DNA from: Sabellastarte sp. h YS-2021
Lineage: Eukaryota > Annelida > Polychaeta > Sabellida > Sabellidae
DNA length: 64,000 nucleotides
Reading direction: 5' to 3'
NCBI GenBank assembly: GCA_964017235.1
Contig: OZ024927.1
Location: 26,183,160-26,247,159, forward strand
Positions 1 through 64,000 of this stretch are shown here, piece by piece. The notes beneath the pieces were generated by a model that worked only from the letters and a program-made list of their open reading frames with translations, searched no databases and was not told where the DNA came from. The position numbers were made by a program, and so were the translations under genes. The number at the start of each line of letters is the position of its first letter. Position 1 is the stretch's first letter.

Positions 1-3000
1 CTTCCCAAGGAAGATGGTGTATCCCCAGACGCCGAATACATAACTCAAATTATATTTTCAATCTTCCTGCAATGATAACTCTAAACCTATTTTCAAAGTA
101 TTTAAATGATTGATGATTGAATGTCCATTCTAAAATAATAATCCCAAAAGAGCATATCTGTTTCTATATTTGTTGACAAACAAAATATTATTTTTAACTC
201 AACTCATCATACTTTTCAATCTTCCTTCAAAGTATTTAAATGATTGATGTTTCAATGTCCATTCTAAAATTCATAATCCCAAAAGCGCATATCTGTTTCT
301 ATATATGTTCACAAATAAAATATTATTTAAAAAAAATTATTTATATTATTATTTTATTATATTATTTTTAGAATTTGCAAATTGTTTTCAGTTATTCATT
401 TCCTCTATACCTATATATGTGGTCCATATATATGCAACCTAAATATGTGACACAATCTCAGTTCTGACTCCCCTTTGTGTTATATGTAATGAAGCCCACC
501 ACCTCCCACCCCCACCCCTCTCCCCTTCTCCACACCTCTCCCACTATTACACAAGATCTGCAACCCCATTGAGTTCTTTGTTTCTCATCTGATATCATTA
601 AATACCTTTGTTTATTTAGTGTCACTCAATATAGCTGGAGGTCCCAGAGGTGGGTGGGGGGAATCCGGGTGGGGGATGCATAAATGGTAAACAAACAATC
701 TATATAAAAGGGGTACTCAAATACAAAAAGAATTGAGAATTTTAAGTATGTGATTATCAACTGAAATGAGTTCATAACTGTAGGAGCTGTGTCAAAATTA
801 ACTGAGGCAAGTTGAATAAAACTGGGCTAGTTGAGGGTTAAAAATCCCCTAGTTTTACTACATAAGGATATAATTTCATTAATATTGGGACTTAAAGCTC
901 ACTTAAAGTGTCCATTTTGTCTACTTGAATATGTTTAACCAGTTTCATTTTCAAAAGCTAAAAACTCAGCAAGCAGAGGTATAACACACAAAAATAAGTT
1001 CTTAAAAGACTAAGATAGCCATAACATTATTAATATTCAAAATTTAAATAGACAGGCATTTCCTTTTAAAAATTCAAAGATTTCAGCTCTATAACCCACA
1101 TAGTTTGACAGTTACTGGGCTTTAAAGTGGCATAATGTCCATAAATAGGGTTTCTGTGGGCATTTTACAATTGTTAAAGAGACCTTAGCAATTAAACTAC
1201 AGATCTGAAACTTTTTGGGGGACATACATAACAAACAAAAATTATATATAATACAGTTTAAGACTTGTCACACTAAGCATTTCCAAATAACGGCAAAATA
1301 CGGAAAAAATGTCCAAAAAGGCACTTGGGCGAGTGTCTATGGCCCTCATACACAGGTTAAATGTCTACTAAAAACCTTGATTTTCGGCATATGTAAAAAG
1401 GACATAATAATGCATTCCCAGATGGGATTTCAGCTCCATCAATTACATAGTTTAACAGTCACAGGGCTTAAAGGTGGTAAAAAGTCCAAATATTGGGTCT
1501 CTGTGGGCCTTTTAGAGATCTCGATGTGGCTTTCAAATTAAAGCTTCAGACTTAAAATTTGTTACATACTAAGATTACACATAGAATATGTATCTAATAA
1601 AGTTTGAAACTTCTCAGACTTACCATTTCCAAGTTACAGAGCAAAATATGTGAAAAATGTCTTAAAAGGGTCACTCAGATGGGTGTTTAAGGTCCTCATA
1701 CACAGTTTAAATGTCTACTTGAAGCCTTGATTTTTGGCACATGTAAAAAGAACATAATAATGTATTCCCAGATGAGATTTCAGCTCTATCAGTCACATAG
1801 TTTAACAGTCACAGGCCTTAAAATTGGCAAAAAGTCCAAATACTGGGTCTTTATGGGGCCTTCTAGAGACCTAAATGTGGCCTTCAAATTAAAGCTTCAG
1901 ACTCAAAATTTGTCACATACTAAGATTACACATAGAATATGCATCTAATACAGTTTGAAACTTCTTAGACTTACCATTTCCAAGTTACAGGGCAAAATAT
2001 GTGAAAAATGTCTAAAAATGGTCACTTGGGTGGGGATTTATGGTCCTCATACACAGGTTAAATGTCTTCTTAAAGCCTTAATTTTTGGCACATATATAAA
2101 TAACATACTAATATCTTCCCAGATAGGATTTGAGCTCTATCAGTCACATAGTTTGACAGTCACAGGGCTTAAAAGTAGCAAAAAGTCCAAATATTGGGTC
2201 TTTGGGAGCCTTTTAGAGACCTCAATTTGACCTTCAAAATTAAAGCTTCAGACTTAAAATCTGTTACATACTAAGATTACACACAGAATATATATCTAAT
2301 ACAGTTTGAAACTTCTCAGACTTACCATTTCCAAGTTACAGGGAAAAAGATGTGAAAAATGTCTTATAAGGGTCACTCGGGTGGGTGTTTATGGTCCTGA
2401 TACACAGGTTAACTGTCTATTAAAGGCCTAAATGTTGGGGCACATATAAGAAAACACATAGATATATTCCCAGATGATATTTAACTTAGATGAGAGACAT
2501 AGTTTGAAAGCTACAGTGCTTGAAAGTGGCAAAAAGTGCACAAATTGGGTCTCTGTGGGCACTTTTGAGACCTTAAGTCGACCCCTTTGGGTAAACCTAC
2601 AGCCCTAAAATTTTCTACAGACAAGGATTACATATCAAAGTTATACCTAGCGCAGTTTGAGACTCATCAGAATTACCACTTCCAAATTATAGGGCAAAAT
2701 ATGTGAAAAGTATAGCAAAAAATCCCTAAGTGGGGGTATTTATGGGCCTCAAACACAATTTTCTCCCCAACTTAAAGTCGTGATTTTCGGCACATGTACT
2801 AAGAACATATTAATGTGTTGTCAGGTAAAATTTCAGCCAGCTGAGCATCATAGTTTGTGACCTACAGGGCTCTAAGTGGCCAAAAGTCCAATTTCTGACC
2901 TTAAGGTGGCCATAAGTTCTTTTTTACTGGGAGTTTAAGGTCACCTTAAAATAGGGATCTTCCTTTGGGCACCCTTAACATGTGTACCAAGTTTGAAAAA

Positions 3001-3125
3001 AAAATATTAATTTGTTTTTGAGTTATCGCGTCCACAAGGAAATTTCTACGGCGGCGGCGGCGGCGGCGGCGGCGGCGCGACGGACCTGAATCCAATATAT
3101 CCCCGACTTTCGTCTGGGGATATAA
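1..3125 (-). mobile_element. Helitron-like family B, copy B1 (3' end cut by window)
   Basis: This copy matches B2 (from 37219 to 40807) almost base for base apart from a 452-bp insertion in B2. It is non-autonomous: no Rep or helicase coding is seen. The interior from about 1090 to 2500 is built of diverged repeats of ~320-350 bp with recurring CACATAGTTTGACAGT and CAGACTTACCATTTCC strings. Read on the minus strand its 5' end is TTATATCCCCAGACG in a palindrome, followed by a (CGG)9 tract at 3049-3075. The right flank begins with T, as expected. Confidence 0.8.
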
Positions 3126-4275: not shown

Positions 4276-7200
4276 CTGAAAAGTCATAGAAGTAAAACAC
4301 AGCTACTAAAGACATATTATTGGGTGCAACATAGCACAAAATAAAACAGATTTAAGATCTCAAATTTTTTGTATTCAACTTCAGGGTTAGAACGGTCAGT
4401 ATTTTTGATGCACAATTATCCCCATTTTCTTTTATAGAGAACTATTTCCAGCATAAAACTGAATGATCTGGTTTTATAAAGTTACAGCAATGACTGAAGA
4501 TCAGTTTTGCAACAGTATTTTCGAAACTGTTGATATGAAACAACAAAACAGGAGGAGTTTTAATAAATTGGAAATCACAACTAGAAAAAGGTTTTTGCTA
4601 ACCAAAACAAGCGGCCCGGATGGAGACTTGAGTTAATAAGGCTGTAGTAAGTGTCGTATGAGACTGTAAGAAGGTAAGCTTTACTGTGTTTTGTATCTGA
4701 TGGGAAAGTGGATTATCTAAAAACTGTATCAGTTGCAGTATTAGACTGTAAGCAGAATAACAGCACGCACAGCTAGGCTTGATAAAGCTCAATGAGAGTG
4801 AACCTTTCCATTTTCTATCAGTTTCTTTTTTCTTCTGCAAGACAGAAAAGATACACATTGCACACATATTCTCCTCTTTGTTTGAATGGGGGGGGGGGGG
4901 GGGGGGGGGGGGGGGAGTGAAACTTACAACACACACACACATAATCTCACTTCCCCCCTCATCCCCCATACACAGAGGCAATTGTTTTCTCACAAGCATT
5001 TTTATTTGAGTGAGGGGAGTGGTGAGGGGGCAGATCTGTGCAGAAAAAGACTGTCTCTCCCTTACTCCCCTCACTGAAATAAAATGCAGGTGAGAAAAAG
5101 ATTATTTACTGCAGTAGAATGTTTAGGTTTTACAGCAATTACTTAATTATGTAAGGGGCTACAGTTCTAAAATTTTACTATGTTATGACCGACACAAAAC
5201 TACATCAAAAACACATTTAACAAAATGCTCTAAAAGTAATACTTTTCAAGTTATAAGTGATTTAGTGCATAAATACATGAATTTTAATGCATCAAAAATT
5301 CATAAAAACATAATTAAGAAAGATCCAGACCTGATACTCCCACAAGGGAATCTACTGGTGGCCTAGTACATATATGCAAGATATGAGAGAAATGCCTGCA
5401 ATAGTCAATGAGATTGTGATAAAGTTTTGAAATTTTCAGACTTTGGGTGGGTGTACCTATCTTGTAATGGCTCTGGGGAACAAACGAACACACAGATCTG
5501 CATGGATTTTACGATTTATCGTCCTCGATAGATAAGGTATCTTTTAAAACAAACAGCATGTCTCTGGGTCTTGTAGTTTTGGAGAAGTTGTTCACGCGGA
5601 CTTGTACGCCACAGAGTGATGCCATAATGTTAGCTGACTGACAAGTCAGCTGACATAATAACAGGAATTTTAAGGAAAAAGGTCATTAAAAGTCTTCCTT
5701 AAACTCAATCAATGTGTCAAGTTGAACTGATGTCATTTAACAGTAAGTTGGTTGGCAGCTGAAAACCCTTATTTTTACTTCAAGGGTGGCGCCATGATTG
5801 TACTTGCATTGGAACTCCAAGGTGGAAAGAAAATAAGAATGTCCCTATAAGTTTGCAAAATTGAACTGAGGTCAGGTGAACAATACGATAGCTGGAGAGT
5901 AATTACTCCATAATTTCACTGCAAGGTGGCCATAACTTCATTCATATTGCAACTTTAAGGTGACCATAAAATAAGAATGTCCCTTTTGTCACCCTTTATA
6001 AGTGCATGAAGTCTAGCTGAGGTCAGTTGAACAACAAGATAGCTGGAGGCTGAAAACTTCCTTTTTTTCACTGTAAGGTGACCATAACTTCATTCATATT
6101 GCAACTTTAAGGTAACCATAAAATGAGAATGTCCCTTCTGCCAACCCTTATAAATGTGCCAAGTTTTATTTTAAAAATTTAAACATTAACTGAGCTTAGG
6201 GCTGAAAAAACCCTACATTTTAAGTTTAAGATGGCCATAACATCATTAATATTTAAATCATAAGGTAGTAAGAGTCTTCTTTTGATCTACTTCAATATCA
6301 ATATACGTTAGATATGGAAAAAGAAAAGGGCCAGACGGCTTTATTCCAAAATTTTATGACTTTAGGGGGCCATAGCTCCAATTATATTAACAGTTTAAGG
6401 TCACCATAAAGTCACGATAATCCTTTGGTAAATCTTAATATATATGTCAAGTCTGGTTGAAAAAAGTCAAAAACTAAGTGAACTGGAAGGCTAAAACCCC
6501 CTTTTTTTGACATTAAGGTGACCTTAAGATTGCAGATACAGGGCTAAAACTTCGGCATGCGAAAGATTATCAAAAAGTAGCTGAATAAGTTATTCCAACA
6601 AAACGCCGAAATCCTGATCGTTTTGAGATATAGACCAAGTACCCATTTTTAAAAACTTTACAAAAATAAAACACCTCCCATTCAGGCAGCTATGGTCCGA
6701 TTGATCAGAAAATCCTTTTTGACCTGCGGATATAGGTCTAGAATGTACCTGATAAATTTTATAGCATAGGTGTGTGTGGTTTTTTCCAAAACGCGATGAC
6801 GGGATGTTTTTGAAAAATGCTTAAGGTTACCTAAAGCTTAAGGTCTCCGCAAAGTATCCCAAAAAAATTTCCCGCCCCTATAGTTTTAAAGAAAGATAAG
6901 AAGGAAAGAAAAATTTGAAAGCCCAAGAAGTTATTCAAGGGTGACCATAATCCCGTGGCGATGATCAGTCGAACTTATGTGAAAACAAATAAGTGCCCCT
7001 GACGGGCCGCTTAATTAACTTCGAAGCGCCACTTCAACTAAAAATGATCTCAATATTTTTAACAAATGATATTTATTTTATTTGGGTAGAAAATTACAAA
7101 CGGATTTAGATGATTAGCACCAAACTACAAAAATCATCAATCTAAATATATTTGCTATACAAACATATCATGAGGTGAAAGATAGTTGGGTTTAATCAAG

Positions 7201-13200: not shown

Positions 13201-14436
13201 AGCCACCATTGTAAATGGGGGTGCAGGGACCTGGGGACTTGGATCCCCTTTTCCAGTGATTCTGGTACCCTCCAGTTGTTTTTGTGATGCCACTGAATGA
13301 GTCTCATATGAAGTTGGCCTAGATGAACTTGCTTTTCTGTAGCTGTTAGCAAACCTATCAAGGACATGAATTCCCGGACCGGGCAAGCCGGTAGGGATAG
13401 CAGTTTCAGCATTTTCTCTTGAAGGTTCTGCCATCGATCTGGAGTCGGCCGGACCCGATCTGATCTGAGGTCTAACTGGTAGCCTATAAAATTGAAGTCT
13501 CGTTTGGGCTCCAGCTCTGATTTCTCTAAGTTCACCAGCCAACCTAGTTGCTGACACATTATTTACTAGGTCCTGTGTATGTTGGAGACAAGCCTGGTGG
13601 GAGCTGGCCCTCACCAACCAGTCGTCTAGGTACTGGTGGCTTCTTAAATCCTTGTGTATGGCCATCAATTTCACCTGCTTTGGTATCACGGTGAACTCCA
13701 AAGGTGCTGTGGACAAACCGAATGGCAGGGCCTTGAACTGGAATGCCCGACCTTGGATGTGAAATCTCAGGCATTTCCTGGATTCTTCTTGTATAGATAT
13801 ATGGACGTAGGTGTCCCTCCTTCAACATTTGTACTACCTAGGGTCCAGTCCCCAAGGCTTCCTAAGTTCCCAAAAAGGGCTTAGTCTGGACCCTATAGGC
13901 AGATTGTGTGCCACCTTTGGGACATTTGGTATACTGACAAACATTTCCTGTCCCTCCGGACACTGGTCCGGTCTGGTGACAATGATCCAGATTAACAGTC
14001 TCTCTGTTCTTATTGTGGTCTGGTGGGGCTGACACAACTTTTCACATTAATAGACTCTTCGCCCCGGGCCGGCAGCCAGCAAGGTGCAGCATTTACAGAG
14101 CAATTGTCATTTGTGAGATGTCTGACCCCTGGCCGGACATGATGACAAATTTATTATCTCTCCAGTCAAGTCCAGCACCGATAACAGGTTTTTGAGAGGT
14201 GTGATAAGAGAAGGTTGCCTGGCAGTAGCTTGGGACACTGTCATATCACAGTCATATCACCAAGCCCACTGACTGGTCTAAGAATAACCAAATTTACCTT
14301 AGGCAACTCTGTCCGGTACCAGGACTCCATATCCGGTACTTTACTGTAACCAGTAATTCTCTGTAACCGGCAAAAAACTGGCAGGCTGGGGTCACCAATG
14401 CATTTTGACATCTACTGGTCTATATTTCGCCAGCTT

Positions 14437-14468
<32 letters not shown>

Positions 14469-44400: not shown

Positions 44401-47400
44401 CTTTTTTTTTTTTTTAAGATAGCCCCCATATTGAATGATGTCTTTTTTTTTCAAGGTACATACTAAACTTTGGGAGGGCTCAGTGTCCAGCTGATATTTT
44501 ATGCAGTCAAGCCGAGCAGTCAACCCCAATTACTTGTGCTTGTGAAACCCCTAGTAATCATTACTCACAGAAAACACCAGCAAAGATATTGTTAGAGTTA
44601 GGGCTGGGACGGGTGCTTAAAAAACAGCCCTGAGTACTTCCCCTCTGGCAACCGACCCAAATTCCAGTAACCGCAAGATTTAGTACGTACCATTAGTAGT
44701 CTTGTGTACACAAACAGTCAATTCCGGTAACGAAACTTTTGAAGAAAAACGTCTTCTATTTAACCAGATATTATACAATATTTAGTAAATTATACATTTT
44801 TAAGGGGAAATCAGAACTTTCATTGGCATTAAGTGGCGGAATTGCAGAACTGTAGCATATTTTACATAAAGGTTTCATTACATGGACGATAATACAATAC
44901 CTTGCGAGTAACCAAGTAGTTAAAATGGACTAGAGTACTAGCAGAAACCGACCTGTCTATCGAGGCTCGAGTAATCGTTCGCAGCCCTAGTTAGAGTACA
45001 GGGATTCAACAACAACTAGTCAAGTTTGTACCTCAATAACCTTCTGTGTTGTGGTCAATTCTCTTTAACGAGTTCTCATTTTTTTTTTCATAAAATTACC
45101 AAATTTATCATAATGGTTCATTTAAAATTGAGAAAAAAAATCATGCAAAATAATTTTTTAGCAATAATTTTAATACTATTGATATTGAGAAAAGAGAGAA
45201 GTATTTTCTGGTGTTCAAATTGTTTTCCAATTGGTTTGTTACTTTACTCTTTAAACAATACTAGATACTCCTTGCACTCCAAGTTCAATCCTGTTAAAGG
45301 GATCAGAAACCTATATCTACATACTCAGTGATTCTACATAATAACTAATTAAATGGACATGACATGCTATAGATTTAATTTAAATTTCTCCTTAAGGAAG
45401 AAGTCTAGTTGATACAGCTCTCTTTAAGGGGTTATGACTATATATGGTATTTCAATACCTTCATAGCTAGTGTGAACTCAGGGTTGTTGTCATGCAACAT
45501 GATGGCAGTCTCTGGGGTTCCCATGCTAGTGCGCACTCCAATATGATAAGACAAGGATGCTCTCTGCTCCTAAATAACACACAAAATAAAACATTGTAAA
45601 AATTGTTATTGTGAAATTGTAAAGAAATTTGATATAGGACACCGACTATGGTGCCCTTAAAAAAACAAACTTGGAATCTTTGAAGTGAACTTGTATGAAT
45701 ACAACTAAATAATACTAAGTACTAGTACAAACTAGAAAAAGGACGCATCTGTGGCCAGATGCTGGATGTATCCACCGACAAAGGCCAACTAACATAGTTT
45801 AGAAGATAAAAAGCATTTTTCGTTAATAAGCAAGCTGAAAGCACTTTTAAGTTTGGCTACCCTTATTTGACCCTGTACCAGGGGCCCAAGGTGAAGTCTG
45901 ACCACATCAAAAGATTCGCAGCCCATGATTTCCTATAAGTCGTTTTCACATTGCAAACCTCTAGGACCAATAATAAGCAGGAGGGGCCCAAGGTCAAATC
46001 TGACCACATGAAAAGATTTGCAGCCCATGACTTCCTATAAGTTGTTTTCATATTAATGAGTTATTTGAGAAATACTGGCTATCTGCAATACTTGTAGAGA
46101 TAATTCGCATTTACTCATTTTGAGTAGGTGAATAATTAGCTACGGGTCTGAAACTTCACCAAGTGAAAGCTCTCTCAAAAGTAGGCGAATGAGTTATTTG
46201 AGAAAAATTGGCTACCTACAATACTTTTAGAGATAATTCGAATTTACTCATTTTCAGTAGGTGAGTAATTACCTACGGGTCTGGAACTTCACCATGTGAA
46301 AGCTGTCCCAAAAGTAGATGAATGAGTTATTTGATAAAAATTGGATATCTGCAATACTTTTAGAGATAATTAGCATTTACTCATTTTGAGTAGGTGAATA
46401 ATTAGCTACAGGTCTGAAACTTTACCAAGTGAAAGCTCTCCCAAAAGTAGGTGAATGAGTTATTTGAGAAAAATTGGCTATCTGCAATACTTTTAGAGAT
46501 AATTCGCATTTACTCATTTTGAGTAGGTGAGTAATTACCTACAGGTCTGGAACTTCAGCATGTGAAAGCTCTCCCAAAAGTAGGTGAATGAGTTATTTAA
46601 GAAAAATTTGCTATCTGCAATACTTTTAGAGAAAATGCAGAATTACTCATTTTTAGTAGGCAAGTAATTTAGCCACAGGCCTAATTTAGACATAAAGCCT
46701 ACCAATAGAATACTGTGGTGCACCCTCTAATATACCTTGCAAACTTGAGAAGGCTAGCTATAATATTTTTTTCGTTAGAGCGGTAATGGTGAAATCTCTC
46801 TACACACTGCGGCTATCCAGTGGATACAATGATTTACTCAACAGTGAGAACCTGAAAGTAGATATTGGTAAGCTATGCCATGACATAGAGGTCTGCAATT
46901 TCACTCTGTTATAGCTGACCAAAAATTATGTGAATAACATATTTAAACAAAATACTGTAAATGTAATAGTTTTCACGTTATAAGTGATTTACTCAACAGT
47001 GATAACCTCAAAGTAGCTATTACTCAGCTATGCAATGAGCTACATGTCTGAATTTTTTCTATGTTATAGCTGACCCAAAATTAGGTGAACAACATATTTA
47101 AGCAAAATACTGTAAATGCAATAGTTTTCAAGTTACAACTGATTTACTCAATAGTGAGAACCTGAAAATAGCTATTGCTCAGCTATGCCATGAGCTATAA
47201 GTCTGTAATTTCACGACGTTATAGCTGACCCAAAAGTAGGTGTACAACATATTTTAACAAAATACTCCAAATGCAATATTTTTCAAGTTACAAGTCATTT
47301 ACTCAACAGTCAGTACCTGAAAATAGCTATTGCTCAGTTGTGCCATGAGCTACAGGTCTGTAATTTCACTATGTTATAGCTGACCCAAAAGTAGCTGAAT

Positions 47401-50400
47401 AACATATTTACACAAATTTCTGGAAATGCAATAGTTTTCCAATTACAACTGATTTACTCAACAGTGTGAACTTCAAAGTAGCTATTACTCAGCTATGCAA
47501 TGAGCCACAGGTCTGGAACTTCACTATGTTATAGCTGACTCCGAAATAGGTGAATAACATATTGAAACAAAATACTCTAAATGTAATACTTTTGAAGTTA
47601 TAAGCAATTTACTCAACAGTGATAACTTAAAAGTAGCTATTACTCAGCTATGCCATGAGCTACAGGTCTGAAATTTTACTATGTTATAGCTGACCCAAAA
47701 ATAGCTGAATAACATATTGAAACAAAATACTCTAAATGCAATAGTTTTCAAGTTACAAGTGATTTTACTCACGATGGAAGTTACTGAAAAGCCCAAAAGT
47801 AGCTATTACTCACTTAGCTATTGAGACAGACACCCAAGTTACTCACCATGTTGTAGCTATGAAAAAAGTACCTGAATAACATATTTTAACAAAATGCTCT
47901 AAATGCAACACTTTTCAAGTTACAAGTTACATTTTTTATCTACCAGAGGCCTAATTTAGACATAAAGCCTACCAAAAAGATAGGGTGGCGAGTCCTCTAG
48001 CATACCAAGCCACCTGCCAAATATGAAAGAAATCTGGAAAGAAATGTGGACTGTAGGTCGCTAACAAGCAATATTCCACATTTTAGACATTTTTGTCTAC
48101 CACAGGCCTAATTTAGACATAAAGCCTACCAAAAAGATAGGGTGGCGAGTCCTCTACCATATCAAGCCACCTGCCAAATATGAAAGAAATCCGGAAAGAA
48201 ATGTGGACTGTAGGTCGCTAACAAGAAATCTCTGCGGACGCGGACGACGACGATGATGAATCCATAGTATCCCCGCTTCGCGTCGGGGATACAATAACAA
48301 TTCAACTTCTACAGATTCCACTTAAGCTGCTTCAGCTGGACCTGTTGATCAAAATGAGTCATGTTTATTTCTGTTTCTGTATATATCACAAAGCCTGGGC
48401 GTGAATTGCAACTAAGGTATTGTAAATTATACATAAAGCATTGTCTGAATGTAATTTTGGAACTATATCTATACTTTTTTCCCACGTGCTTAAATTTTTT
48501 TTACATTACTGCAAAACTTTAAATATTGTGTAAAACAGTTTCAGTATTATTTACTTGAGGTATATATGTCACAGTATGGTAATTATACAGTATTTCATTA
48601 TTATTATTATTAATTGTTTTATTTTTTGTAGTTTCCATCTTTTTTCGAACTGGACATTTATTTCAATACACTGACAACTTTCACTGGATTTTAGTATTTG
48701 ACAACATATAAGCACCCAAATAGATGACACAACTAGACTAAGGACGCATCTGTGGCCAGATGCTGGATGTATCCACCGACAAAGGCGAACTAACATAGTT
48801 TAGAAGATAAACAGCATTTTTCGTTAATAAGCAAGCTGAAAGCACTTTTAAGTTTGGCTACCCTTATTTGACCCTGTACCAGGGGCCCAAGGTGAAGTCT
48901 GACCACATCAAAAGATTCGCAGCCCATGATTTCCTATAAGTCGTTTTCACATTGCAAACCTCTAGGACCAATAATAAACAGGAGGGGCCCAAGGTCAAAT
49001 CTGACCACATGAAAAGATTTGCAGCCCATGACTTCCTATAAGTTGTTTTCATATTAATGAGTTATTTGAGAAATACTGGCTATCTGCAATACTTGTAGAG
49101 ATAATTTGCATTTACTCATTTTGAGTAGGTGAATAATTAGCTACGGGTCTGAAACTTCACCAAGTGAAAGCTCTCTCAAAAGTAGGCGAATAAGTTATTT
49201 GAGAAAAATTGGCTATCTACAATACTTTTAGAGATAATTCGAATTTACTCATTTTCAGTAGGTGAGTAATTACCTACGGGTCTGGAACTTCACAATGTGA
49301 AAGCTTTCCCAAAAGTACATGAATGAGTTATTTGATAAGAATTGGATATCTGCAATACTTTTAGAGATAATTAGCATTTACTCATTTTGAGTAGGTGAAT
49401 AATTAGCTACAGGTCTGAAACTTCACCAAGTGAAAGATCTCCCAAAAGTAGGCGAAGGAGTTATTTGACAAAAATTGGCTATCTGGAATACTTTTAGAGA
49501 TAATTTGCATTTACTCATTTTCAGTAGGTGAGTAATTACCTACGGGTCTGAAACTTCACCAAGTGAAAGCTCTCCCAAAAGTAGGTGAAGGAGTTATTTG
49601 ACAAAAATTGGCTATCTGCAATACTTTAGAGATAATTTGCATTTACTCATTTTGAGTATGTGAGTAATTACCTACGGGTCTGAAACTTCACCAAGTGAAA
49701 GCTCTCCCAAAAGTAGGTGAAGGAGTTATTTGACAAAAATTGGCTATCTGCAATACTTTTAGAGATAATTCGCATTTACTCATTTTGAGTAGGTGAGTAA
49801 TTACCTACAGGTCTGGAACTTCAGCATGTGAAAGCTCTCCCAAAAGTAGGTGAATGAGTTATTTAAGAAAAATTTGCTATCTGCAATACTTTTAGAGAAA
49901 ATGCAGAATTACTCATTTTTAGTAGGCAAGTAATTTAGCCACAGGCCTAATTTAGACATAAAGCCTACCAATAGAATACTGTGGTGCACCCTCTAAAATA
50001 CATTGCAAACTTGAGTAGGCTAGCTATAATATTTTTTTCGTTAGAGCGGTAATGGTGAAATCTCTCTACACACTGCGGCTATCCAGTGGATATAATGATT
50101 TACTCAACAGTGAGAACCTGAAAGTAGATATTGGTACGCTATGCCATGACATAGAGGTCTGCAATTTCACTCTGTTATAGCTGACCAAAAACTAGAGGAA
50201 TGCTTGTGCTAACAAAAGTGAAGCGTCCCTTAAAGTTTAAAATGCTTTGTGGTTTTAATAAGCATGCTGTAAAGCTAAGAATGCACAAAGCTGCACCGTA
50301 TGCTTTCCCAATACCTCTTAATACATTCTGAAGCTATAAAAGCAACAATAAAGGAGATATAAGGCAAAAACTCCAAAGCAGTTACTTATGATCCCGGTTT

Positions 50401-53400
50401 GGCCCATAAAGGGGGGTCGAGGGATAAAACTGACCGGCTATTTAGATTCTCCACATATGCTTTCCCAATACCTCTTAATACATTCTGAAGCTATAAAAGC
50501 AACGATAAAGGAGATATAATGCAAAAACTCCAAAGCAGCTATTTTATGACCCCAGTTTGACCCATAAGGGGGGGTTGGGGGATAAAACTGACCGGCTATT
50601 TAGATTCTCCACATATGCTTTCCCAATACCTCTGAATACATTCTGAAGCTATAAAAGCAACAATAAAGGAGATATAAGGCAAAAACTCCAAAGCAGCTAT
50701 TTATGACCCCAGTTTGGCCCATAAGGAAGGGTGGGGGGTAAAACTGACCGGCTATTTAGACTCTCCACATATACTTTCCCAATACCTCTTAATATATTCT
50801 GAAGCTATAAAAGCAACAATAAAGGAGATAAAGGCAAAAACTCAAAATCGGCTATTTTATGACCCCAGTTTGACCCATAAGGGGGGGTCGGGGGGTAAAA
50901 CTGACCGGCTATTTAGACTCTCCATATATGCTTTCCCAATACCTCTTAATACATTCTGAAGCTATAAAAGCAACAATAAAGGAGATATAAGGCAAAAACT
51001 CAAAATCAGCTATTTTATGACCCCAGTTTGACCCATAAGGGGGGGGCGAGGGGGTAAAACTGACCGGCTATTTAGACTCTCCATATATGCTTTCCCAATA
51101 CCTCTTAATATATTCTGAAGCTATAAAAGCAACAATAAAGGAGATAAAGGCAAAAACTCAAAATCGGCTATTTTATGACCCCAGTTTGACCCATAAGGGG
51201 GGGTCGGAGGGTAAAACTGACCGGCTATTTAGACTCTCCATATATGCTTTCCCAATACCTCTTAATACATTCTGAAGCTATAAAAGCAACGATAAAGGAG
51301 ATATAATGCAAAAACTCCAAAGCAGCTATTTTATGACCCCAGTTTGACCCATAAGGGGGGGTTGGGGGATAAAACTGACCGGCTATTTAGATTCTCCACA
51401 TATGCTTTCCCAATACCTCTGAATACATTCTGAAGCTATAAAAGCAACAATAAAGGAGATATAAGGCAAAAACTCCAAAGCAGCTATTTATGACCCCAGT
51501 TTGGCCCATAAGGAAGGGTCGGGGGGGTAAAACTGACCGGCTATTTAGACTCTCCACATATGCTTTCCCAATACCTCTTAATATATTCTGAAGCTATAAA
51601 AGCAACAATAAAGGAGATAAAGGCAAAAACTCAAAATCGGCTATTTTATGACCCCAGTTTGACCCATAAGGGGGGGTCGGGGGGTAAAACTGACCGGCTA
51701 TTTAGACTCTCCATATATGCTTTCCCAATACCTCTTAATACATTCTGAAGCTATAAAAGCAACAATAAAGGAGATATAAGGCAAAAACTCAAAATCAGCT
51801 ATTTTATGACCCCAGTTTGACCCATAAGGGGGGGCCAGGGGGTAAAACTGACCGGCTATTTAGACTCTCCATATATGCTTTCCCAATACCTCTTAATATA
51901 TTCTGAAGCTATAAAAGCAACAATAAAGGAGATAAAGGCAAAAACTCAAAATCGGCTATTTTATGACCCCAGTTTGACCCATAAGGGGGGGGTCGGAGGG
52001 TAAAACTGACCGGCTATTTAGACTCTCCATATATGTTTTCCCAATACCTCTTAATACATTCTGAAGCTATAAAAGCAACAATAAAGGAGATATAAGGCAA
52101 AAACTCAAAATCAGCTATTTTATGACCCCAGTTTGACCCATAAGGGGGGGGCCGTGGGGTAAAACTGACCGGCTATTTAGACTCTCCACATATGGTTTCC
52201 TATTACCTCCCAGTACATTTTATAGCTCTAAATGCAATACTTAAGAAGATAATAGGGGGGTTGGCCTAAATTTAAGGCTTTCAGATTGGAAGGTGTCAGA
52301 AAATCACTCATAAATGAGACATTTTTCAAGGGATTGCTCCCAAAATCTAATCAGCTCGTGTTTTCAATAGTATGAACAGGTGTGTCAAATTATAAGGCTC
52401 TGTAGCAAGTAGTTTTTCCTTAACTGTGATGACGGGGGGGGGGTACACTTCAAAAAATAGTTTTTGATCATGTGACCTTCATAAAGGTCAAAGCTAAAAT
52501 TTAAGCATGCAGAAAAATTTTCCCACGCCTAAGGTATATAACTGCCAAATATTGTTTGAAACCTTCTAATAATAAGGGAGATATTCAAGGGAGACCATAA
52601 TGCGGCGGCGAATTAGGGACGCTTAATTATGTGAATAACATATTTAAATAAAATACTGTAAATTTAATAGTTTTCACGTTATAACTGATTTACTCAACAG
52701 TGATAACCTCAAAGCAGCTATTACTCAGCTATGCAATGAGCTACATGTCTGAATTTTTTCTATGTTATAGCTGACCCAAAATTAGGTGAACAACATATTC
52801 AAGCAAAATACTGTAAATGCAATAGTTTTCAAGTTACAACTGATTTACTCAATAGTGAGAACCTGAAAATAGCTATTGCTCAGCTATGCCATGAGCTGTA
52901 AGTCTGTAATTTCACGATGTTATAGCTGACCCAAAAGTAGGTGAACAACATATTTTAACAAAATACTCCAAATGCAATATTTTTCAAGTTACAAGTCATT
53001 TACTCAACAGTCAGTACCTGAAAATAGCTATTGCTCAGTTGTGCCATGAGCTACAGGTCTGTAATTTCACTATGTTATAGCTGACCCAAAAGTAGCTGAA
53101 TAACATATTTACACAAATTTCTGGAAATGCAATAGTTTTCCAATTACAACTGATTTACTCAACAGTGTGAACTTCAAAGTAGCTATTACTCAGCTATGCA
53201 ATGAGCCACAGGTCTGGAACTTCACTATGTTATAGCTGACTACGAAATAGGTGAATAACATATTGAAACAAAATACTCTAAATGTAATACTTTTGAAGTT
53301 ATAAGTAATTTACTCAACAGTGATAACCTAAAAGTAGCTATTACTCAGCTATGCCATGAGCTACAGGTCTGAAATTTTACTGTTATAGCTGACCCAAAAG

Positions 53401-56400
53401 TAGCTGAATAATGTATTTATACAAAATTGTGTAAATGCAATAGTTTTCAAGTTACAAGTGATTTTACTCATGATGGAAGTTACTGAAAAGCCCAAAAGTA
53501 GCTATTACTCACTTAGCTATTGAGACAGACACCGAAGTTACTCACCATGTTGTAGCTATGAAAAAAGTATCTGAATAACATATTTTAACACAATGCTCTA
53601 AATGCAACACTTTTCAAGTTATAAGTGATTTAGTGTATGATTTCATGACTTTTAATGCATTTTAGACATTTTTGTCTACCACAGGCGTAATTTAGACATA
53701 AAGCCTACCAAAAAATAGGGTGGCGAGACCTCTAGCATACCAAGCCACCTGCTAAATATGAAAGAAATCTGGAAAGAAATGTGGACTGTAGGTCGCTAAC
53801 AAGCAATATTCCACATTTTAGACATTTTTGTCTACAACAGGCCTAATTTAGACATAAATCCTACCAAAAAGATAGGGTGGCGAGTCCTCTACCATATCAA
53901 GTCACCTGCCAAATATGAAAGAAATCCGGAAAGAAATGTGGACTGTAGGTCGCTAACAAGAAATCTCTGCGGACGCGGACGAGGCCGCGGACGACAACGA
54001 TGATGAATCCATAGTATCCCCGCTTCGCGTCGGGGATACAATTAATACAGTAAGCTGAATACACAGGTGATAAAACAATACTGTTGTACATTTTGACTAG
54101 TTTTCCTTTGAATAGAGTTAAAGAAGTGAAAAAAATGTTGATACTCTGTCAATCAGCAGGGGATATATTTGAAATAAGTTTGTAGTGGATAGTCACAGCA
54201 CAAATGCACAGACCTACAAGACCTAACAGTACATTCCAACAGCTAGAGAATAACAATTACAGGTTGGTGGCAATTAAAATACAACAAAAAGGCTAAAGCA
54301 AAAATCTTCAACACAATTTCATTTGGCATGTCTATTATTGAAATTTTTTCTCTATAAAAAAAATAGCATCAGAGATGCCCGTACCCACAGCCTGGGGAAA
54401 TAGTTTTCAACACCATGACATATAGAAGTAGTGCAACAGTACAAAGACTGAAATACTTTCAGTGCAGTGTCACTTATACAAAGGTCCAAATAATGTTTAA
54501 GTAGAGTAAATAACATCTAAGAGAAAGAAAATGTATGTAAAGATAAAGTACTAAAACAAGACAATTCAATGGCAAGATGACAGCATTAATCAGTAAACTA
54601 AAAAGATATGAAGCTTTAAAATTTATTAATTGAAGAATAGCAGTCAATGGAAATAGCATAATTATGTAAAAGTGCATATAATAACCAGTTGAAGCAATCC
54701 ATATATCCTTGTCATAAGAGAAAGATGTCTCAAATATGGCAGCTGAATACACTTTGGCAGAGCAAAAATGTCACAACATGATGCACACATCCATTTACAT
54801 ACACCCCGTAACCTATGTCCCTACCAAGTATCAACTTGCTACATCTTACTGTTTCCAAGCTATAGCCTGGACAAGATTTCAAAGGTCAAGGTCACTAAGG
54901 CGAGGTCAAAGGTTAAATCAAGGTCACACCATGACATTGCACACCTACAATCCCCCACCAATGTCCCTGTCGAGTAAGAACTTCCTGCACCTTACAGTTT
55001 CTGAGATATCACCAGGACAAGATTTTATAGGTCAAGGTCACTACAGCAAGGTCAAAGGTCAAATCAAGGTCACATCATGATGAGGCACACCTAGACCTCC
55101 TAACCAAAGTCCATACCAAGTATCAACTTCACACAGCTTACCGTTTCTGAGATATAGCCTGGAAAAGATTTTATATGTCAAAGTCACTACGGCAAAGTCA
55201 AAGATCAAATCAAAGTCACACCATGATGAGGCAAACCTACACTGAGTAACCAATGTCCCTACCAAGTATTAACTTCCTACACCCTACGGTTTCCGAGATA
55301 TAACCAGGACAAGATTTTATAGGTCAAGGTCACTACGCCAAGGTCAAAGGTCAAATCAAGGTCACACCATGACGATGGACACCTACACACCCTAACCAAT
55401 GTCTCTACCAAGTATCAACTTCCTACACCTTACGGTTTCTGAGATATAGCCCGGACAAGATTTTATAGGTCAAGGTCACTAAGGCAAGGTCAAAGGTCAA
55501 ATCAAGGCCAGACCATGACGTTGCACACCTACACCTCCTAACCAATGTCCCTACCATGTATCAACTTCCTACACCTTACGGTTTCTGAGATACAGCCCTG
55601 GCGAAGTTTATCCCGTGGTCCGCCTGCCCATCCGGACACCATGGGTGAAAACAATACCCTGACAGCCTTTAAGGGCTGTGGGGTAATAAAACTTACAGGA
55701 ATTGACATGTCAACAATGACCACATCAGCATTGTAAAACTTGTCCAGGTAGAAGGTCTCCCCAAAGTCCAGCTGGTCAAATCCAATGTGGAACAAGTCAA
55801 GATCCACGCTACAAATATAGCAGCAAAATTAAGTGTACAATCTACATAATAGTGAATTATGTATATCTAACTACTGAAATGAAATCTGTGATACCGCTCA
55901 CGTCAGAATTATGATCCACCCCCAAAACATATAAATTATGCATAAACGGCCACAATTTTCAACAAAATGTAGAGTCTAGATTGTTTGAAAGGACTTTTGA
56001 TATATTTCACTTAAGTTTTATCTGCATAACTTCATAAAAATTGTATATTTTAGCCATTAGCAAAACCATAAACAATCATGTAATAAAAGTGGGAATTCCC
56101 CGCAGAGAAGTTTCAAGGGTTTTCTGATTGGCTGAGCATAAATGTGGAAATACATGTGGAGAGTACAAATCATTGTAGTTAATTTCTGTAAATGAAAAAA
56201 ATTATTAAGGCCTTCAATCGCTGGAATTAGCTGATGTCACTATATAACATAGCGACTATTATGCTTAAATAAAATGGAGCATTATGGGATTTCTCATTAA
56301 AGTTCCACTACACAAAACATAAACAGTTCAATATGGTAATTATATATGGGCGAGCACTCAATTCTTAAAATTGGGTAGACTTTTGATGAAATTTGTCAAG

Positions 56401-59400
56401 CCTTGCACATTCAGTCGCACCCCTATATGAGATTATGTATTTATTTTATAAAGATACATTACTGGGTTGTCAGATTAGTGTTTAATAAAAGACAATATTT
56501 TGTAACATTGAGAGGTATGTTGTTGTTTGCACAAACAGCCATTATTCAGCTATACGAGCACATGGTTAATGCCCCATGGGCACTTCCATGCAGTGTTCGA
56601 AACTCACGCTGGTCCATCGGCCCGAGACCACCAACTATGGAGACGGTCCAGTAACTCTTCAGAGTTTGTGGCCTGTCGGTCTACCAAATGTTTGATGCAA
56701 GGAATTAAGATGTATGAACGTTTAAAAATTAAACTACATTAGAAACAGCTAGAAAATGGGAAGTATTTAATCGAATATTTAACAACAAATCCAAATGCTT
56801 CTATTATGGCCCATCGGAAACGTAGTTTATAAAACACGCAATTTCATTGGTCAACCCCGAAATTTGCTGGTCAATGAGATTCCTCGACTTAAACCATCAA
56901 CACAGATCGTTTTTGTGAATAAACCCATGCAAATTACGTCACAATGTTAGTAGTTCTTTGAAATGGACGACTGAACTAACATATCTGTGATACCTGTTAA
57001 GAGATACCCAATTTTAAACATTCATTATAAAATAACCAATTATTGAATTGACTTCAAATCTGAATACATAAAAGAACTAGAAGAATGTTTTTGCTGACAA
57101 AAACGAAGCGGCCCTGATGAAAAAGAAGTCACCCATAAAAGATGTCAACATATGCATCATAAGCAACAGAAACTGTGAACTTTATTGCATTGTGTATGTC
57201 ACTTGTCCCTATTTTCATCTTTAATAAGTGTGCACAATTAAAGTGAGGTCAGCTGAACAATACAATAACTGGAGATTGAAAACTCCATAATTTCACTGCA
57301 AGGTGGCCATAACTTCATTCATATTGGGACTTTAAGGTGACCATAAAATATGAATGTCCCTTTTCTCATCCTTTATAAGTGCATAAAGTTTAGCTCATGT
57401 CAGTTGAACAATATGATAGCTGAAGGCTGAACTTCCTTTTTTCACTGTAAGGTGACCATAACTTCATTCATATTGCGACTTTAAGGTGACCATAATATGA
57501 GAATGTCCCTTCAATATCAATGTATGTTAGATATGGAAAAAGAAAAGAGCCAGACGGCTTTATTCAAATGTTATGACTTTAGGTGGGGCCAAAATTATAT
57601 TAACAGTTTAAGGTCACCTTAAAGTCAGGATAACTCTTTGGTCTGCCATCCTTTATAGGTGTGCAAAGTTTAACTGAGGTCAGTCAAACAATAAGATACT
57701 TGGAGGTTGAAAACCCACTTATTTCACTTTAAGGTGGCTACAACTCCATTCATACTGAGAGTTTAAGGTGACCATAGTATTATTTTTATCTACTTTAATA
57801 CCAGTGATAATTTCAATATAAAAAATGGAAAAAGAAAGGAGCCAGAGGATTTTATTCCAATTTGATGACTTTAAGCAGGCCATATGTCCATTAACATTTT
57901 GAGTTTAAGGTCACCATAAAGTCAGGATATTCCTTTGGCAAATCTTAATATATGTGCCAAGTTTGGTTGAAAAAAGTGAAAAACTAAGTGAACTGGAGGG
58001 CTAAAACCCCGTTTTTTGACATTAAGGTGACCTTAAGATTGCAGATACAGGGCTAAAACTTCGGCATGTGAAAGATTATCAAAAAGTAGCTGAATAAGTT
58101 ATTCCAACAAAACGCTGAAATCCTAACCATTTTGAGATACAGACCAAGTACCCATTTTAAAAAAATTTACAAAAATAAAACGCCTCCCATTCAGGCATCT
58201 ATGGTGCGATTGACGAGAAAATCCTTTCCGACCTTGGAAATTTGGTCTAGAATGTACCAGATAAATTTTATAGCACAGGTGTGTGTGGTTTTTTCCGAAA
58301 CGCGATGACGGGGTGTTTTGGAGTTATGCTTAAGGTTACCTTTAGTAAAGCTTAAGGTCTGCGCAAAGTATCCCAAAAATTTTTCCCGCCCCTATAGTTT
58401 TAAAGAAAGATAAGAAGGAAAGAAAAATTTGAAAGGCTAAGAAGTTATTCAAGGGAGACCATAATCCGGCGGCGGCGCTCAGTCGAACTTCGATGAAAAC
58501 AAATAAGCGTCCCTGATGGGCCGCTTAACTAGCACTGCCCTATCTGGTACTTTTTACAATATAGTATTAAGTTGTGGGTTTGTTGAGATACAGCACATTG
58601 AACCTGAGTATATTTTTTTTCGCAATTTACATATTTTACAATTTTAAAATTAAGTGCACAATCTAGTTACTAAATTCACTGGCAGGCAATATTCTTACTT
58701 ATTTTATGTATACTGATGTTGGGGAAGTTCAACATTGCTGATTCTAACAGCACAGACTTTATTTTATTTATTTTTTTTTTTTTGTGCCCACACAGTAATT
58801 TTTATGTTTAGACATGTTACATTTTACTTTGCTTTTGTTTACATTTTATGTAAAATCTGAACATTTACAGCTTCATGCAGCTTGCCAAACAGCCTGTGTC
58901 AAAATGTCAATCAGCCTGTGTCAAAGGCATTTGAAATCAAGATTTTAACAAATAAATATTGGAACAGGAACTTTTCATTCGGGCAATTAAGTTTTTTAAG
59001 TTACTGGCCCGTTGGACCACCAACTATTTTGGCTAAGCCATGAACACTGCTTCCATGTGTGTTATGTGCTGGAGATCAGGTCCCAATATCGAGTTACTAC
59101 TGTATGTAGAGTTCCCATAACTCTATCACGGTGAAAAAGTTGAGCAGACAAATCTCTGAGTACCTGGCACTGTAAGACATATTTGAAGTAAACTTGCTGT
59201 CAGTGTATAAAACTGTAAACTGATTAACCTGATTATCAATGAATTATGCATAATGTATATGGATTGATGCAAGAATAAGGGAATCAAGTGTCTACATCAA
59301 TGTTTACAATAGGCCCTTGATCAACAACACTTGCCCAAGGTTTTCATAAAACACTATACTGCCCAGAAGGAAGCGTTTTATTCTGTTTATTATACTGAAG

Positions 59401-60389: not shown

Positions 60390-62210
60390 CAAGTAATCAG
60401 TGCTCTTGAACGGCCTCTGTGTCAGCTAACTTTGTGTTTTGTGCTTCAAAGTACAAGTGAAACTAGAAAAGGACATATATGAAAATACCTATTGCTCAGC
60501 TATGCAATGAGTTACAGGTCTGCAATTTTACTATATTACAGCAGACCCAAAAGTAGGTGAATAACATATTTTAACTAGACCTACGCATCGGAGACCGAGG
60601 CAAATTTGTATCCACCGAAAAGACAACTCACCAAAGCCAGTGAACCAATGTTTGACCTTGAAGGAGGGGCCAAAGGTCAAATCTAACAACAGAAAATTCC
60701 TAGCCCAAGATTTTGCATGAGTTGGTTTCGTACTCTAAACTTCTAGGATCAATAATAAGTGAGTTATAAGCACTTTTAACTTTGGCTATCCTCGTTTGAC
60801 CTTGAAGAAGGGGCCCAAGGTCAAATCCGACCACGCCAGAAGATTCCCAGCCCATGATATTCTATAGGTTGGTTTACCATCCCAAACCTCTAGGACCAAT
60901 AATAAGCGAGTTATAAGCACTTTTAACTTTGGCTGTCCTCATTTGACTTTGAAGAAGGGGCCCAAGGTCAAATCCAACCACACCAGAAGATTCCCAGCCC
61001 ATGATTTCCTATATGTTGGTTTACCATCCCAAACCTCTAGGACCAATAATAAGCGAGTTATAAGCACTTTTAACTTTGGCTATCCTTGTTTGACCTTGAA
61101 GGACGGGCCCAAGGTCAATTCCGTCCACACCAGAAGATTCCCAGCCAATGATTTCCTATATGCTGGTTTACCATCCCAAACCTCTAGGACCAATAATAAG
61201 TGAGTTATAAGCACTTTTAAGTTTGGCTATCCTTGTTTGACCTTGAACGAGGGGTCCAAGGTCAAATCTGACCACACAAAAAGATTCCCAGCCCATGAGT
61301 TTCTATAGGTTGGTTTACCATCCCAAACCTCTAGCAGCAATAATAAGCGAGTTATAAGCACTTTTAACTTTGGCTATCCTTATTTGACCTTGAAGGAGGG
61401 GTCCAAGGTCAAATCAGACCACACCAGAAGATTCCCAGCCCATGAGTTCTATTGGTTGGTTTACCATCCCAAACCTCTAGGACCAATAATAAGCGAGTTA
61501 TAAGCACTTTTAACTTTGGCTATCCTCGTTTGACCTTGAAGGAGGGGCCCAAGGTCAAATCCGACCACACCAGAACAGAACCTGACAGTAGCTATTGCTC
61601 AGCTATTCAATGAGCTACAGGTCTGCAATTTCACTATGTTATAGCTGACCTAACAGTAAGTAAATAACTTTTCAAACAAAATCATCTAAATGCAATAGTT
61701 TTCCAGTATTTACTTAACAGTGAGAATCTGAAAGTAGTTATTGATCAGCTATGCAATGAGCTACAGGTCTGCAGTTTTACTATGTTACAGCTGACCCAAA
61801 AGGTAAAAAATATATTTAAACAAAATACTCTAAATGCAATAGTTTTCAAGTTACAAGTGATTTACTTAATAGTAGGACTGGGACAGGTGCTCTAAAATAG
61901 CCCTGGATGAGATTTTATACGTCAAAGTCACTATTCTTCAATAGACAATGAGAAAATTGTGATAAAGTGCTGCAATTTTCACACTTAAGGTGGGGGGACT
62001 TCACTTGTAATGGCTCTGGGAAATAAACAAATATATCTACATGCCTTGAACAATTTTTCATGCTTGATACTCAATAGCTAAGGTATCTTTTAACAGAACT
62101 AGCATGTCCCTGGGCCTTGTACTTTTAGAGGAGTTGTTCATATGGCTGTGTATCCAGTCACCACAGAGTGACACCGTAATATCAGTTGACTGATAAGTCA
62201 GCTAACATAA
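60390..62210 (-). mobile_element. Degenerate family A copy A3, composite with a C-type end
   Basis: The left end CAAGTAATCAGTGCTC...GTGTCAGCTAAC and right end ATCAGTTGACTGATAAGTCAGC are diverged family A termini. Inside, a C-like left terminus (A|CTAGACC... TGTATCCACCGA) occurs at 60575, followed by about six 146-bp units (60640-61570), two 155-bp units and a fragment of the hAT-type MITE near 61876. No C-type right end is found, so this is either a recombinant or a truncated nested copy. Confidence 0.65.
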
Positions 62211-62337
62211 AAATCAAAACCTTAACAACTCAGTTAATTCAGTTGTGGCATATTTGCTTGGTAATAGAGTATCAAATATCAGACTTCAAAAATAAAAAAT
62301 AAATAAATAAAAAAAATTCATAAATATAAAAAAAAAA

Positions 62338-64000
62338 CTAGATTGTGCCGACTCGACGCCAACATATCCCCAGACAGGCCATCTCTCACACCACATGCAT
62401 TCACTGGGTATTTTTGCAGCACCCATTTTGTGTAATTCACAATAATTATAAACTATTTTTATTATTTTTTTTTTTTAACCAAAAAACATGGTTCAACCAT
62501 TTTTTCTCATTTTTGCGGGATGAATTTTGAAAAAAAGTCCTCTGAGTGGATCATTCACATACATGTTAAATGTCTACTTAAAGCCTTGGTTTTTGGCACA
62601 TGAAAAAAGAACATATTAATATATTCCCAGATGATATTTCAGCTGTATCAGGCACATATTATGACAGTTATAGGGCTTAAAAGTGGTAAAAAGTCAATAA
62701 ATTGGGGGTCTGTGAGCATTTAAGAGACCTTAAGGTGACCTTAAAATTAAAGTTACAGACCTAAAATTTTTGACCAAGATTTTATGTAGCATTTATATCT
62801 ACTACAGTTAGAGACTTGTCAGGCTAACCATTTCCAGGTTACAGGACTAAATATGTTGAAAAGGGTTACTCGGGTGGGTGTTTATGGTCCACATACACAG
62901 GTTAAACTACTATTTAAAGCCTTGGTTTTTTTCACAAGTAAAAAGAACATAATCATATATTTCCAGATGAGATTTCAGCTATATCAGTCACATCGTTTGA
63001 CAGCTATAGGCCCTCAAAGTGGGTGTCTGTGGGCAATTTAGAGACTTCAAGGTGACCTTAAAATTAAAGTTACAGACTTAAATTTTTTTACAGTACATGT
63101 AGAAGTTATATCTACTACAGTTCCAGACTTGTCAGACCTACCACTTTTGAGTTATAGGGGAAATATGGGGAAAATGTCTAAAAAACGTCTAAGTATGGTT
63201 TTTGTGGGTCTCAAAAACAATTTTAACCTTAACATAAAGTCTTGATTTTTGGTATATGTAAGGATAATATAGTAATGTGTTCCCCGGTAAAATTTGAGCC
63301 AGATATGCCACATAGTCTGTGACCTTGAGGGTATAAAGTGGCAAAAAATCAAATTTCTGATCTTAACCCTTTCGCTACTGAAGGAACATTATTCCAAGGG
63401 ACTGTAGCCATATGACGTCATATCACGTCAGAAACGCCAATGAAGTAAAGTAATATCTCACTACCTTATACACTTTATTTGCGGTATTTTTCGGCATATT
63501 TTATTAGGAATTGATGAAAGTCGAATGGGAAAATTTGTGGGAATTCCCCAAATAAAAATAACCACGAGTAAACAATATGCAACAATATGCAGCTATATGC
63601 GGTAAATACGGCAATATATACAGAAACCAGTTAAAATAGGTGAAATGGCGAATTTTTAAAAAAAAATATGGCTTAACTTTCATATAAAATACTTTAAAAA
63701 TCAGTTTAATACTGATACACCAAAGAAAACGTACAACAGTACACTGAAGGGAAAGAAGAAATATATATTATTGATGTCGACCCTTGGTCGACGGACATGG
63801 TCCCTTGTAATACACATTGATGTAGACTGCTAGCCGACAGACATGGTAGCGAAAGGGTTAAGGTGGCCATAAGTTCTTTATTACTGGGAGTTTAAGGTCA
63901 CCTTAAAATAGGGTTCCTCTCCTGACTCCTGAATGAAATCTGTGAAAGCGTTTTTGAGTTATCACTCACACAAGTCAAAATGTACCGCGGCGGTGCGACA
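62338..64000 (-). mobile_element. Helitron-like family B, copy B3 (5' end cut by window)
   Basis: The left end is A|CTAGATTGTGCCGACTCG followed by ACATATCCCCAGACAGG, the same arrangement as B2 with substitutions. It is internally shorter than B1 and B2 and split by a MITE at 63367-63857. The window ends within the CGG-rich patch that precedes the 5' terminus, so only a few tens of bases are missing. Confidence 0.82.
63363..63861. mobile_element. piggyBac-type MITE with TTAA duplication, inside B3
   Basis: The 491-bp element (63367-63857) starts CCCTTTCGCTAC and ends with the inverted GTAGCGAAAGGG, flanked by TTAA on both sides (63363-63366 and 63858-63861). The matching sites in B1 and B2 read GACCTTAAGGTGGCC with a single TTAA, giving the empty site. 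TTAA duplication and CCC-initial termini are typical of piggyBac. No transposase is encoded. Confidence 0.9.

Follow-up and report, generated by a model that had tools for sequence, protein, structure and literature searches.

Repeat families of probable HINE type and local strand domains of transposable elements on a Sabellastarte chromosome

Introduction

Which transposable elements gave rise to the repeats of this locus, and why do they all point the same way? The locus is a stretch of 64,000 nucleotides from Sabellastarte sp. (C1:26183160-26247159 in a 1.79-Gb genome), referred to below, at its full length, as the window. A first-pass annotation made from the sequence had noticed repeated minus-strand families with TT-initial 5′ ends, lettered A to E, and had raised the possibility of an undescribed group of Helitron-like elements. 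We recovered the families by pairing similar copies and reading their ends; the letters A–E were assigned by matching to that annotation, which holds no coordinates. Five families were found in the window, T-initial where their 5′ ends were recovered (A, B, C, and E), and every identified copy lies on the minus strand. We conclude that A–E are very probably HINEs, i.e., non-autonomous Helentrons, which undergo rolling-circle transposition with helpers supplied in trans. They are new families of an already known kind, and their terminal plan is not itself new.

A common terminal plan

In families A, B, C, and E, the 5′ end starts with T at a palindrome and recurs in inverted form close to the 3′ terminus; a 3′ hairpin is present as well, but is weak in C. 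The palindrome is present in A, B, C, and the autonomous copies described below; E shows it with one mismatch by eye, and its variant E2 has lost it. The inverted copy lies 24–42 nt before the 3′ terminus in A, B, C, E, E2, E3 (the second copy of E), and the autonomous copy, and its longest exact match to the 5′ end is 12 bp in A and in C, 10 bp in E2 and in E3, 9 bp in E, and 7 bp in B, where the copy is imperfect. The 3′ ends read CTAG in B, C, D, and E and CTCTTG (thus CTTG) in A, and TT follows directly after all 11 of the window 3′ ends checked. Hairpin folding against shuffled sequences, with one sequence per family, gave z-scores of −3.5 for A, −3.5 for B, −2.5 for E, and an intermediate −1.9 for the autonomous element. 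The window is also rich in repeats bearing tandem arrays, with units of 133, 146, 155, 158, and 351 bp, so that central tandem repeats, a common though not obligatory feature of HINEs, are present as well. Between E and E2, a single base change in the 5′ repeat is paired with the complementary change in the 3′ repeat (AAGCGGCCC/GGGCCGCTT vs. AAGCGTCCC/GGGACGCTT), as expected if both repeat copies must match.

The terminal tetranucleotides agree with the first-pass annotation in all five families. Its inverted end copy of 9–12 bp was recovered for A, C, and E (9–10 bp), but not for B; its 5′ palindrome, claimed for B, C, D, and E, was seen in B, C, and E, but the 5′ end of D was looked for in the window and not found, the 3′ end at 60575 being the only end of this family there. 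The small 3′ hairpin stands for A, B, and E. That the sequences differ between families is right in part, but B and C have a TATCCCC core in common and the 3′ copy of B resembles that of D. When the window was scanned for a strict 10-bp form, A and C alone were detected on the minus strand, together with two low-complexity matches on the plus strand (controls: one match reversed, two complemented), so B, D, and E fail that strict form. The families also depart from the canonical Helitron (Helitron1), with its 5′-TC start and no terminal inverted repeats: they start with TT and carry inverted repeats. The CTRR 3′ end of Helitron1 fits the CTAG of B–E and not the CTTG of A.

Insertion sites and copy number

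Two nested insertions can be compared with their empty sites. In family B copy 2, E2 is flanked by CACATAA on one side and TTTTTGG on the other, and B copy 1 carries the empty site CACATAATTTTTGG, an exact match. Similarly, C entered A copy 2 at GATAA^TTATGC (the caret marks the insertion point), for which A copy 1 offers the empty site GATAATTATGC. No base is duplicated at either site; hence, there is no target-site duplication. This bears on the idea that the families are miniature inverted-repeat transposable elements (MITEs) derived from a DDE transposon with subterminal repeats. Such an origin would suit elements that are non-coding and have inverted end sequences, but DDE-derived MITEs duplicate their target, and here the 3′ repeat copy is internal and followed by a hairpin and then by CTAG next to TT. 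We therefore regard a MITE origin as barely credible.

In all 20 C copies retrieved from the genome, as well as in both window copies, the 5′ junction shows T at −4 and −1 and A at −2, so the target of C reads TNAT^T, a pattern that also fits B1, B2, E2, and E3. Copy number was estimated genome-wide for B and C by counting 5′ ends with at most two mismatches, with the reversed pattern as control. Family C has 8,497 such ends (4,350 + 4,147) and family B 2,671 (1,343 + 1,328), with 0 matches for either reversed control. A second full-length C copy, at locus L065, is 98.8% alike to the window copy at 37084..40807, and both of its boundaries are identical.

An autonomous-type Helentron in the same genome

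No helper had been seen in the window, and none of the 24 genome matches to Pfam Helitron_like_N falls there. The longest frames of these 24 loci form about seven or more groups, as judged by BLAST identity and not by a tree. The similarity between two autonomous-type copies is 98.5% and 99.0% over 6.3- and 6.6-kb blocks. In one of these copies, L033, the frame is open over 2,245 codons and matches Helitron_like_N and the PIF1 helicase, with Exo_endo_phos at 21.4 bits, below the cut-off of 24.5; at another locus, L035, Exo_endo_phos_2 scores 29.3 bits, above the cut-off. NCBIfam returned a single match to the Helentron protein, far under its cut-off. The ends of the autonomous copies consist of a 5′ TTTTTAGGCGGGTTGCGTGTAACCAACCCGCC with a GTCC/GTCT microsatellite and a 3′ GCGCAACCCGCC before CTCTTG, which is followed by T; they have a 12-bp inverted repeat of their own, and their terminal plan is that of the HINE families.

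This plan is already in print. As described in the available text of Thomas et al. (2014, PMC4067079), HINEs of a mite and a fly have subterminal inverted repeats (subTIRs), a 3′ palindrome, a T-rich target without target modification, and partners encoding Rep, helicase, and endonuclease. Likewise, Vojvoda Zeljko et al. (2020, PMC7492417) describe Cg_HINE of the Pacific oyster as a 5′ subTIR with a complementary copy, a microsatellite, a central satellite array, a 3′ subTIR, and a palindrome, inserted at TT without duplication and in both orientations. The same paper re-classes Pearl as a non-autonomous Helentron and states that autonomous Helentrons could not be related to the oyster HINEs. 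Under the family rule of Thomas et al., which asks for at least 11 identical subTIR bases, the window families are separate, new members of the HINE kind (PMC4067079).

The first-pass comparison with Helentron/Helitron2 elements is thus borne out by the ends, by the T-rich target without duplication, and by a Rep-helicase-endonuclease element of the same plan in the genome; its suggestion of an undescribed group is not. A rolling-circle group apart from Helentrons and HINEs, defined by the common plan, could draw on the fact that the plan is kept while family sequences differ, and on the lack of a helper with identical ends among those determined, which come from one autonomous family. Since the parts of the plan stand in the published HINE descriptions (PMC4067079, PMC7492417, as far as their available text goes), and the Helentron of the same genome carries it too, we consider a separate group very improbable.

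Several observations weigh against the HINE assignment or its details. The proposed genome search for an autonomous Rep/helicase element with matching ends turned up the same plan, but no helper with subTIRs identical over at least 11 bp to those of A–E, ends having been worked out for one autonomous family (two copies). The ends of L035 were looked for and none were found. The second autonomous-type copy, L034, has a broken frame, and the 5′ motif AGG(C/T)GGGTTGCG occurs twice per autonomous copy (L042/L036 and L043/L040, about 600 and 770 bases apart), which makes the start actually used ambiguous. The hairpins of C (z = −1.3) and D (z = −0.5) are weak, and E2 has none. In the A variant at 60390-62213, the longest inverted end match is 6 bp. 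Finally, the junction of E1 reads TAGT, and A and the autonomous element lie in T-runs where TNAT is not clear.

If A–E are HINEs, the chemistry of their transposition, which we infer along with the pairing of helper and family, can be rationalized into three steps. (i) Nicking: the Rep-helicase-endonuclease of a resident Helentron would most likely nick the element strand at its 5′ end. (ii) Joining: the freed 5′ end would be joined to target DNA rich in T, with TNAT^T as the site in C. (iii) Transfer: the element strand would be peeled off up to the 3′ hairpin and CTAG or CTTG, and then joined to the next T. Rep binding and cleavage may be guided by the 5′ palindrome together with its inverted counterpart close to the 3′ terminus, and the central satellite arrays would be carried along as passengers.

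Strand domains along C1

Is the common strand a peculiarity of the window? Strand was compared over C1 from 0.9 to 84 Mb, using the first 100 exact matches listed for each of three patterns: B, C, and, as a control, a motif of a DIRS-like retroelement (7,772 + 7,933 genome matches; reversed control, 0). We take this element to be DIRS from its frames and inverted ends, and not from a family search. All strand counts given here are among the matches listed. Pairs 5–50 kb apart lie mostly on the same strand: 38/42 for C–C (reached in 0 of 10,000 permutations), 19/20 for B–C (6 of 10,000), and 7/7 for B–B (146 of 10,000). When B and C are pooled, agreement is 11/12 below 5 kb, 43/44 at 5–30 kb, and 21/25 at 30–50 kb, followed by 43/71 at 50–100 kb, 79/118 at 100–200 kb, 78/118 at 200–300 kb, and 294/669 at 300–1000 kb. 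The sole discordant pair below 5 kb consists of two C copies on opposite strands, 829 bases apart. The 202 listed copies that lie below 26.5 Mb fall into 47 runs of equal strand, compared with about 101 expected by chance according to our own estimate.

The control shows the same domains. At 5–50 kb, the same strand was found for 32/33 DIRS–DIRS, 54/58 DIRS–C, and 18/18 DIRS–B pairs; a B or C copy lies within 50 kb of 48 of the 100 DIRS copies, and the strand equals that of the nearest one in 48/48. The pattern is therefore not specific to rolling-circle insertion.

Three simple causes were tried and rejected. The first, segmental duplication, was addressed with the 500-bp 5′ flanks of 20 retrieved C copies, 18 of them from two same-strand clusters (L044-L054 and L055-L061), plus the two window copies. 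The flanks are mostly unrelated: the only matches concern a shared satellite array (L045, L050, L060, and the window copy at 40807) or L047 and L052, over 103 bp plus 69-bp pieces. They point to independent insertions. The second, target density, is too small an effect, as TT or ATT counts differ by 3–11% between the strands of 28.8 kb of non-element window DNA. The third, nested insertion into co-oriented arrays, does not suffice as the sole cause because 15 of the 20 flanks have no match to the window HINE arrays; those that match are L045, L050, L053, L060, and L062, and L048 and L056 show short matches or matches of another kind.

Element strand and host genes

The window holds a MAP3K5 (ASK1)-like host gene, of whose six Pfam exon matches three are above the family cut-off. 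Three HINEs (A copies 1 and 2 and C) sit between its exons, all in sense. Elsewhere, at 3 of 20 PDZ loci, a HINE lies no more than 1.5 kb from a PDZ exon, again in sense in each case (Table 1). At L091, a DIRS copy lies in sense between PDZ exons 67 kb apart, and at L090, a C fragment (84% identical) lies antisense between PDZ exons 105 kb apart; in both, membership of the exons in one gene is unproven. L088 and L089 were examined, and no element was found there. Overall, five of the six genes are oriented as their elements are, or four of four without L090 and L091. A kinase codon motif, used as a guide to gene strands, pointed near listed copies to the MAP3K5-like gene only, and half of its matches are noise (391 vs. 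209 in the control). Near Rep matches, insertions are co-directional at L012 and L013 and not so at L010/L016 (one event), L029, and L030/L031 (one event); at L025, the match is to the array at 54.8-55.6 kb only.

One explanation, specific to rolling-circle elements, is that they insert where DNA is single-stranded, either at the replication fork or where transcription exposes the non-template strand of a gene. It would go well with B/C strand agreement up to ~50 kb among mostly unrelated flanks, and with the sense orientation seen both in the MAP3K5-like gene and next to the three PDZ exons. We nevertheless find it unlikely: the DIRS-like retroelement shows the same domains, and the DIRS class integrates by a different chemistry from rolling-circle elements. 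The antisense C fragment at L090 and the mixed directions near old Rep matches point the same way.

Alternatively, elements of many types may land on both strands and be purged from long host transcription units where they are antisense. This would explain a pattern common to HINEs and DIRS and the equality of element and gene strand in five of six genes. Against it, the 43/44 agreement at 5–30 kb is far above the strand biases of mammalian introns, and the poly(A) signals of seven elements show no consistent difference between strands. The bias in print for mammalian introns, in the available text, is antisense. Purging seems to us a serious possibility, though one that falls a little short of an even chance.

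We lean slightly towards a broader reading, in which the strand of an element is set by its place: in domains of ~50–100 kb, HINE families and the unrelated DIRS-like element would almost all be co-directed, apparently in the direction of the host gene, through integration steered by the direction of transcription (or replication) or through near-complete removal of antisense copies. Its weaknesses are that six genes and one chromosome were covered and that the controls include no third class of element. Purging, steered insertion, or neither may be the cause. The closest precedents we met in print, in partly available text, are the bacterial IS200/IS605 and Tn7 elements, whose orientation follows replication (PMC5371812), and a weak strand bias of long interspersed nuclear elements beside genes in barley (PMC5738225). 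Strand domains of this sort were not found described in the open PMC literature on strand or orientation bias within the search words used, as far as the available text of those papers goes. If such domains extend over the whole genome and track genes, transposon strand alone would reveal long transcription (or replication) units, and strand-selective insertion could be tested against purging on thousands of copies.

Features of the window

The coordinates of all features are collected in Table 1.

Table 1. Elements and gene of the window, with related loci elsewhere in the genome; HINE names follow the assignment argued in the text.
Feature	Position	Strand	Remarks
HINE family A, copy 1	31291..34351	-	3′ end intact; empty site of C insertion; 5′ end unlike that of copy 2, likeness between both stops at 34351
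HINE family A, copy 2	36998..43501	-	5′ TTTTTATGTCAGCTGACTTGTCAGTCAGCTGACAT, 3′ GTCAGCTGACACAGTGCCCGTTCACGGGCACTCTCCTCTTG; family C nested inside
HINE family A variant	60390..62213	-	5′ TTTTTATGTTAGCTGAC, 3′ GTTAGCTGACACAG..ATTACTTG
HINE family B, copy 1	45732..48294	-	5′ TTGTATCCCCGACGCGAAGCGGGGATAC, 3′ GTCGGTGGATACA..hairpin..TTTTTCTAG; empty site for E2 of B copy 2
HINE family B, copy 2	48733..54041	-	E2 nested inside
HINE family C	37084..40807	-	5′ TTATATCCCCAGACGAAAGTCGGGGATATA, 3′ GTCTGGGGATAT..AATCTAG; inside A copy 2; holds 351-bp array
HINE family C, second window copy	678..3125	-	likeness to the copy at 37084..40807 ends at 678
HINE family C-type 3′ end	62338..64000	-	copy continues past window edge
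HINE family D 3′ end and adjoining 146-bp array	60575..61575	-	array probably part of D
HINE family E	57077..58528	-	5′ TTAAGCGGCCC, 3′ GGGCCGCTT..hairpin..TTCTAG
HINE variant E2	50192..52626	-	5′ TTAAGCGTCCC, 3′ GGGACGCTT..CTAG; inside B copy 2; holds 158-bp array
HINE family E, second copy (E3)	4581..7014	-	10-bp inverted end match
DIRS-like retroelement	10295-16660	-	inverted ends 10336-10513/16460-16637; reverse-transcriptase-like frames
MAP3K5 (ASK1)-like host gene, span of supported exons	18942..45569	-	Pfam MAP3K_TRAF_bd, Pkinase; PDB matches to MAP3K5
Sense HINEs near PDZ exons	L074; L078; L081		L074, B; L078, A-array fragment (125 bp, 72% identical); L081, C

Within the A elements, at 31572-33957 and 41003-42918, two unlike arrays (146 bp and 155 bp) stand side by side. 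The 155-bp unit of A is also present in B, and central arrays are to that extent common to several families. A further 146-bp array, unassigned to any of the five families, occupies 54800-55597, and related copies adjoin the Helentron loci L025 and L035. A scan of the window with Rfam at gathering scores gave no matches.

Along the MAP3K5-like gene, a putative exon at 43512-43688 was seen by eye, with no Pfam match, and A copy 2 begins about ten bases past its putative donor. L064 (1-2009, minus strand) may, by eye, hold the last MAP3K exons; a single match supports this, covering 19 residues of MAP3K15 and ranking second of two (E = 0.94), while other searches gave nothing of use, so we make no claim for a 200-kb gene. 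A tandem array of 102-bp units at 28100-29448, 98% alike and with a plus-strand open frame of 249 codons, lies within the MAP3K exon span. At C1:33137795-33197682, a motif recurs every ~2.2 kb on one strand, which suggests a tandem array of 2.2-kb units.

Comparison with known systems

Similarities to published elements are drawn from the available text of the papers cited. FoHeli1/2, Helitron2-type elements of Fusarium (PMC5148889), resemble the window families in their asymmetric terminal inverted repeats, hairpins, and insertion between TNAT and T, and differ in their ATTTT ends, their fungal host, and the endonuclease domain, which that text does not report. The window adds exact empty sites and, in C, a TNAT^T target like that of these fungal elements. 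The HINE/Helentron elements of Metaseiulus and DINE-1 of Drosophila (PMC4067079) are alike, by description only, in their subTIRs of 12–15 bp (palindromic in the mite), 3′ palindrome, unmodified T-rich target, and Rep/Hel/endonuclease partner, whereas the window families have long satellite arrays. Pearl of Crassostrea virginica and Anadara (via PMC7492417) has short arrays of ~160-bp repeats between its end modules, a likeness that is again one of description only.

Cg_HINE of Crassostrea gigas (PMC7492417) is alike in the 5′ subTIR with its nearby complementary copy, the 3′ subTIR, the palindrome, the GTCY/GTCC microsatellite, and a central array made of one or two types of satellite, as well as in the TT target, the absence of duplication, and the empty sites; the likeness is by description and not by family sequence. 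In Sabellastarte, by comparison, the insertion target of C can be narrowed to TNAT^T, and an autonomous copy has the same plan, though its ends are not identical to those of A–E. This Rep-helicase-endonuclease copy, found in the same genome as the HINE families, bears on the helper question that the oyster paper left open (PMC7492417).

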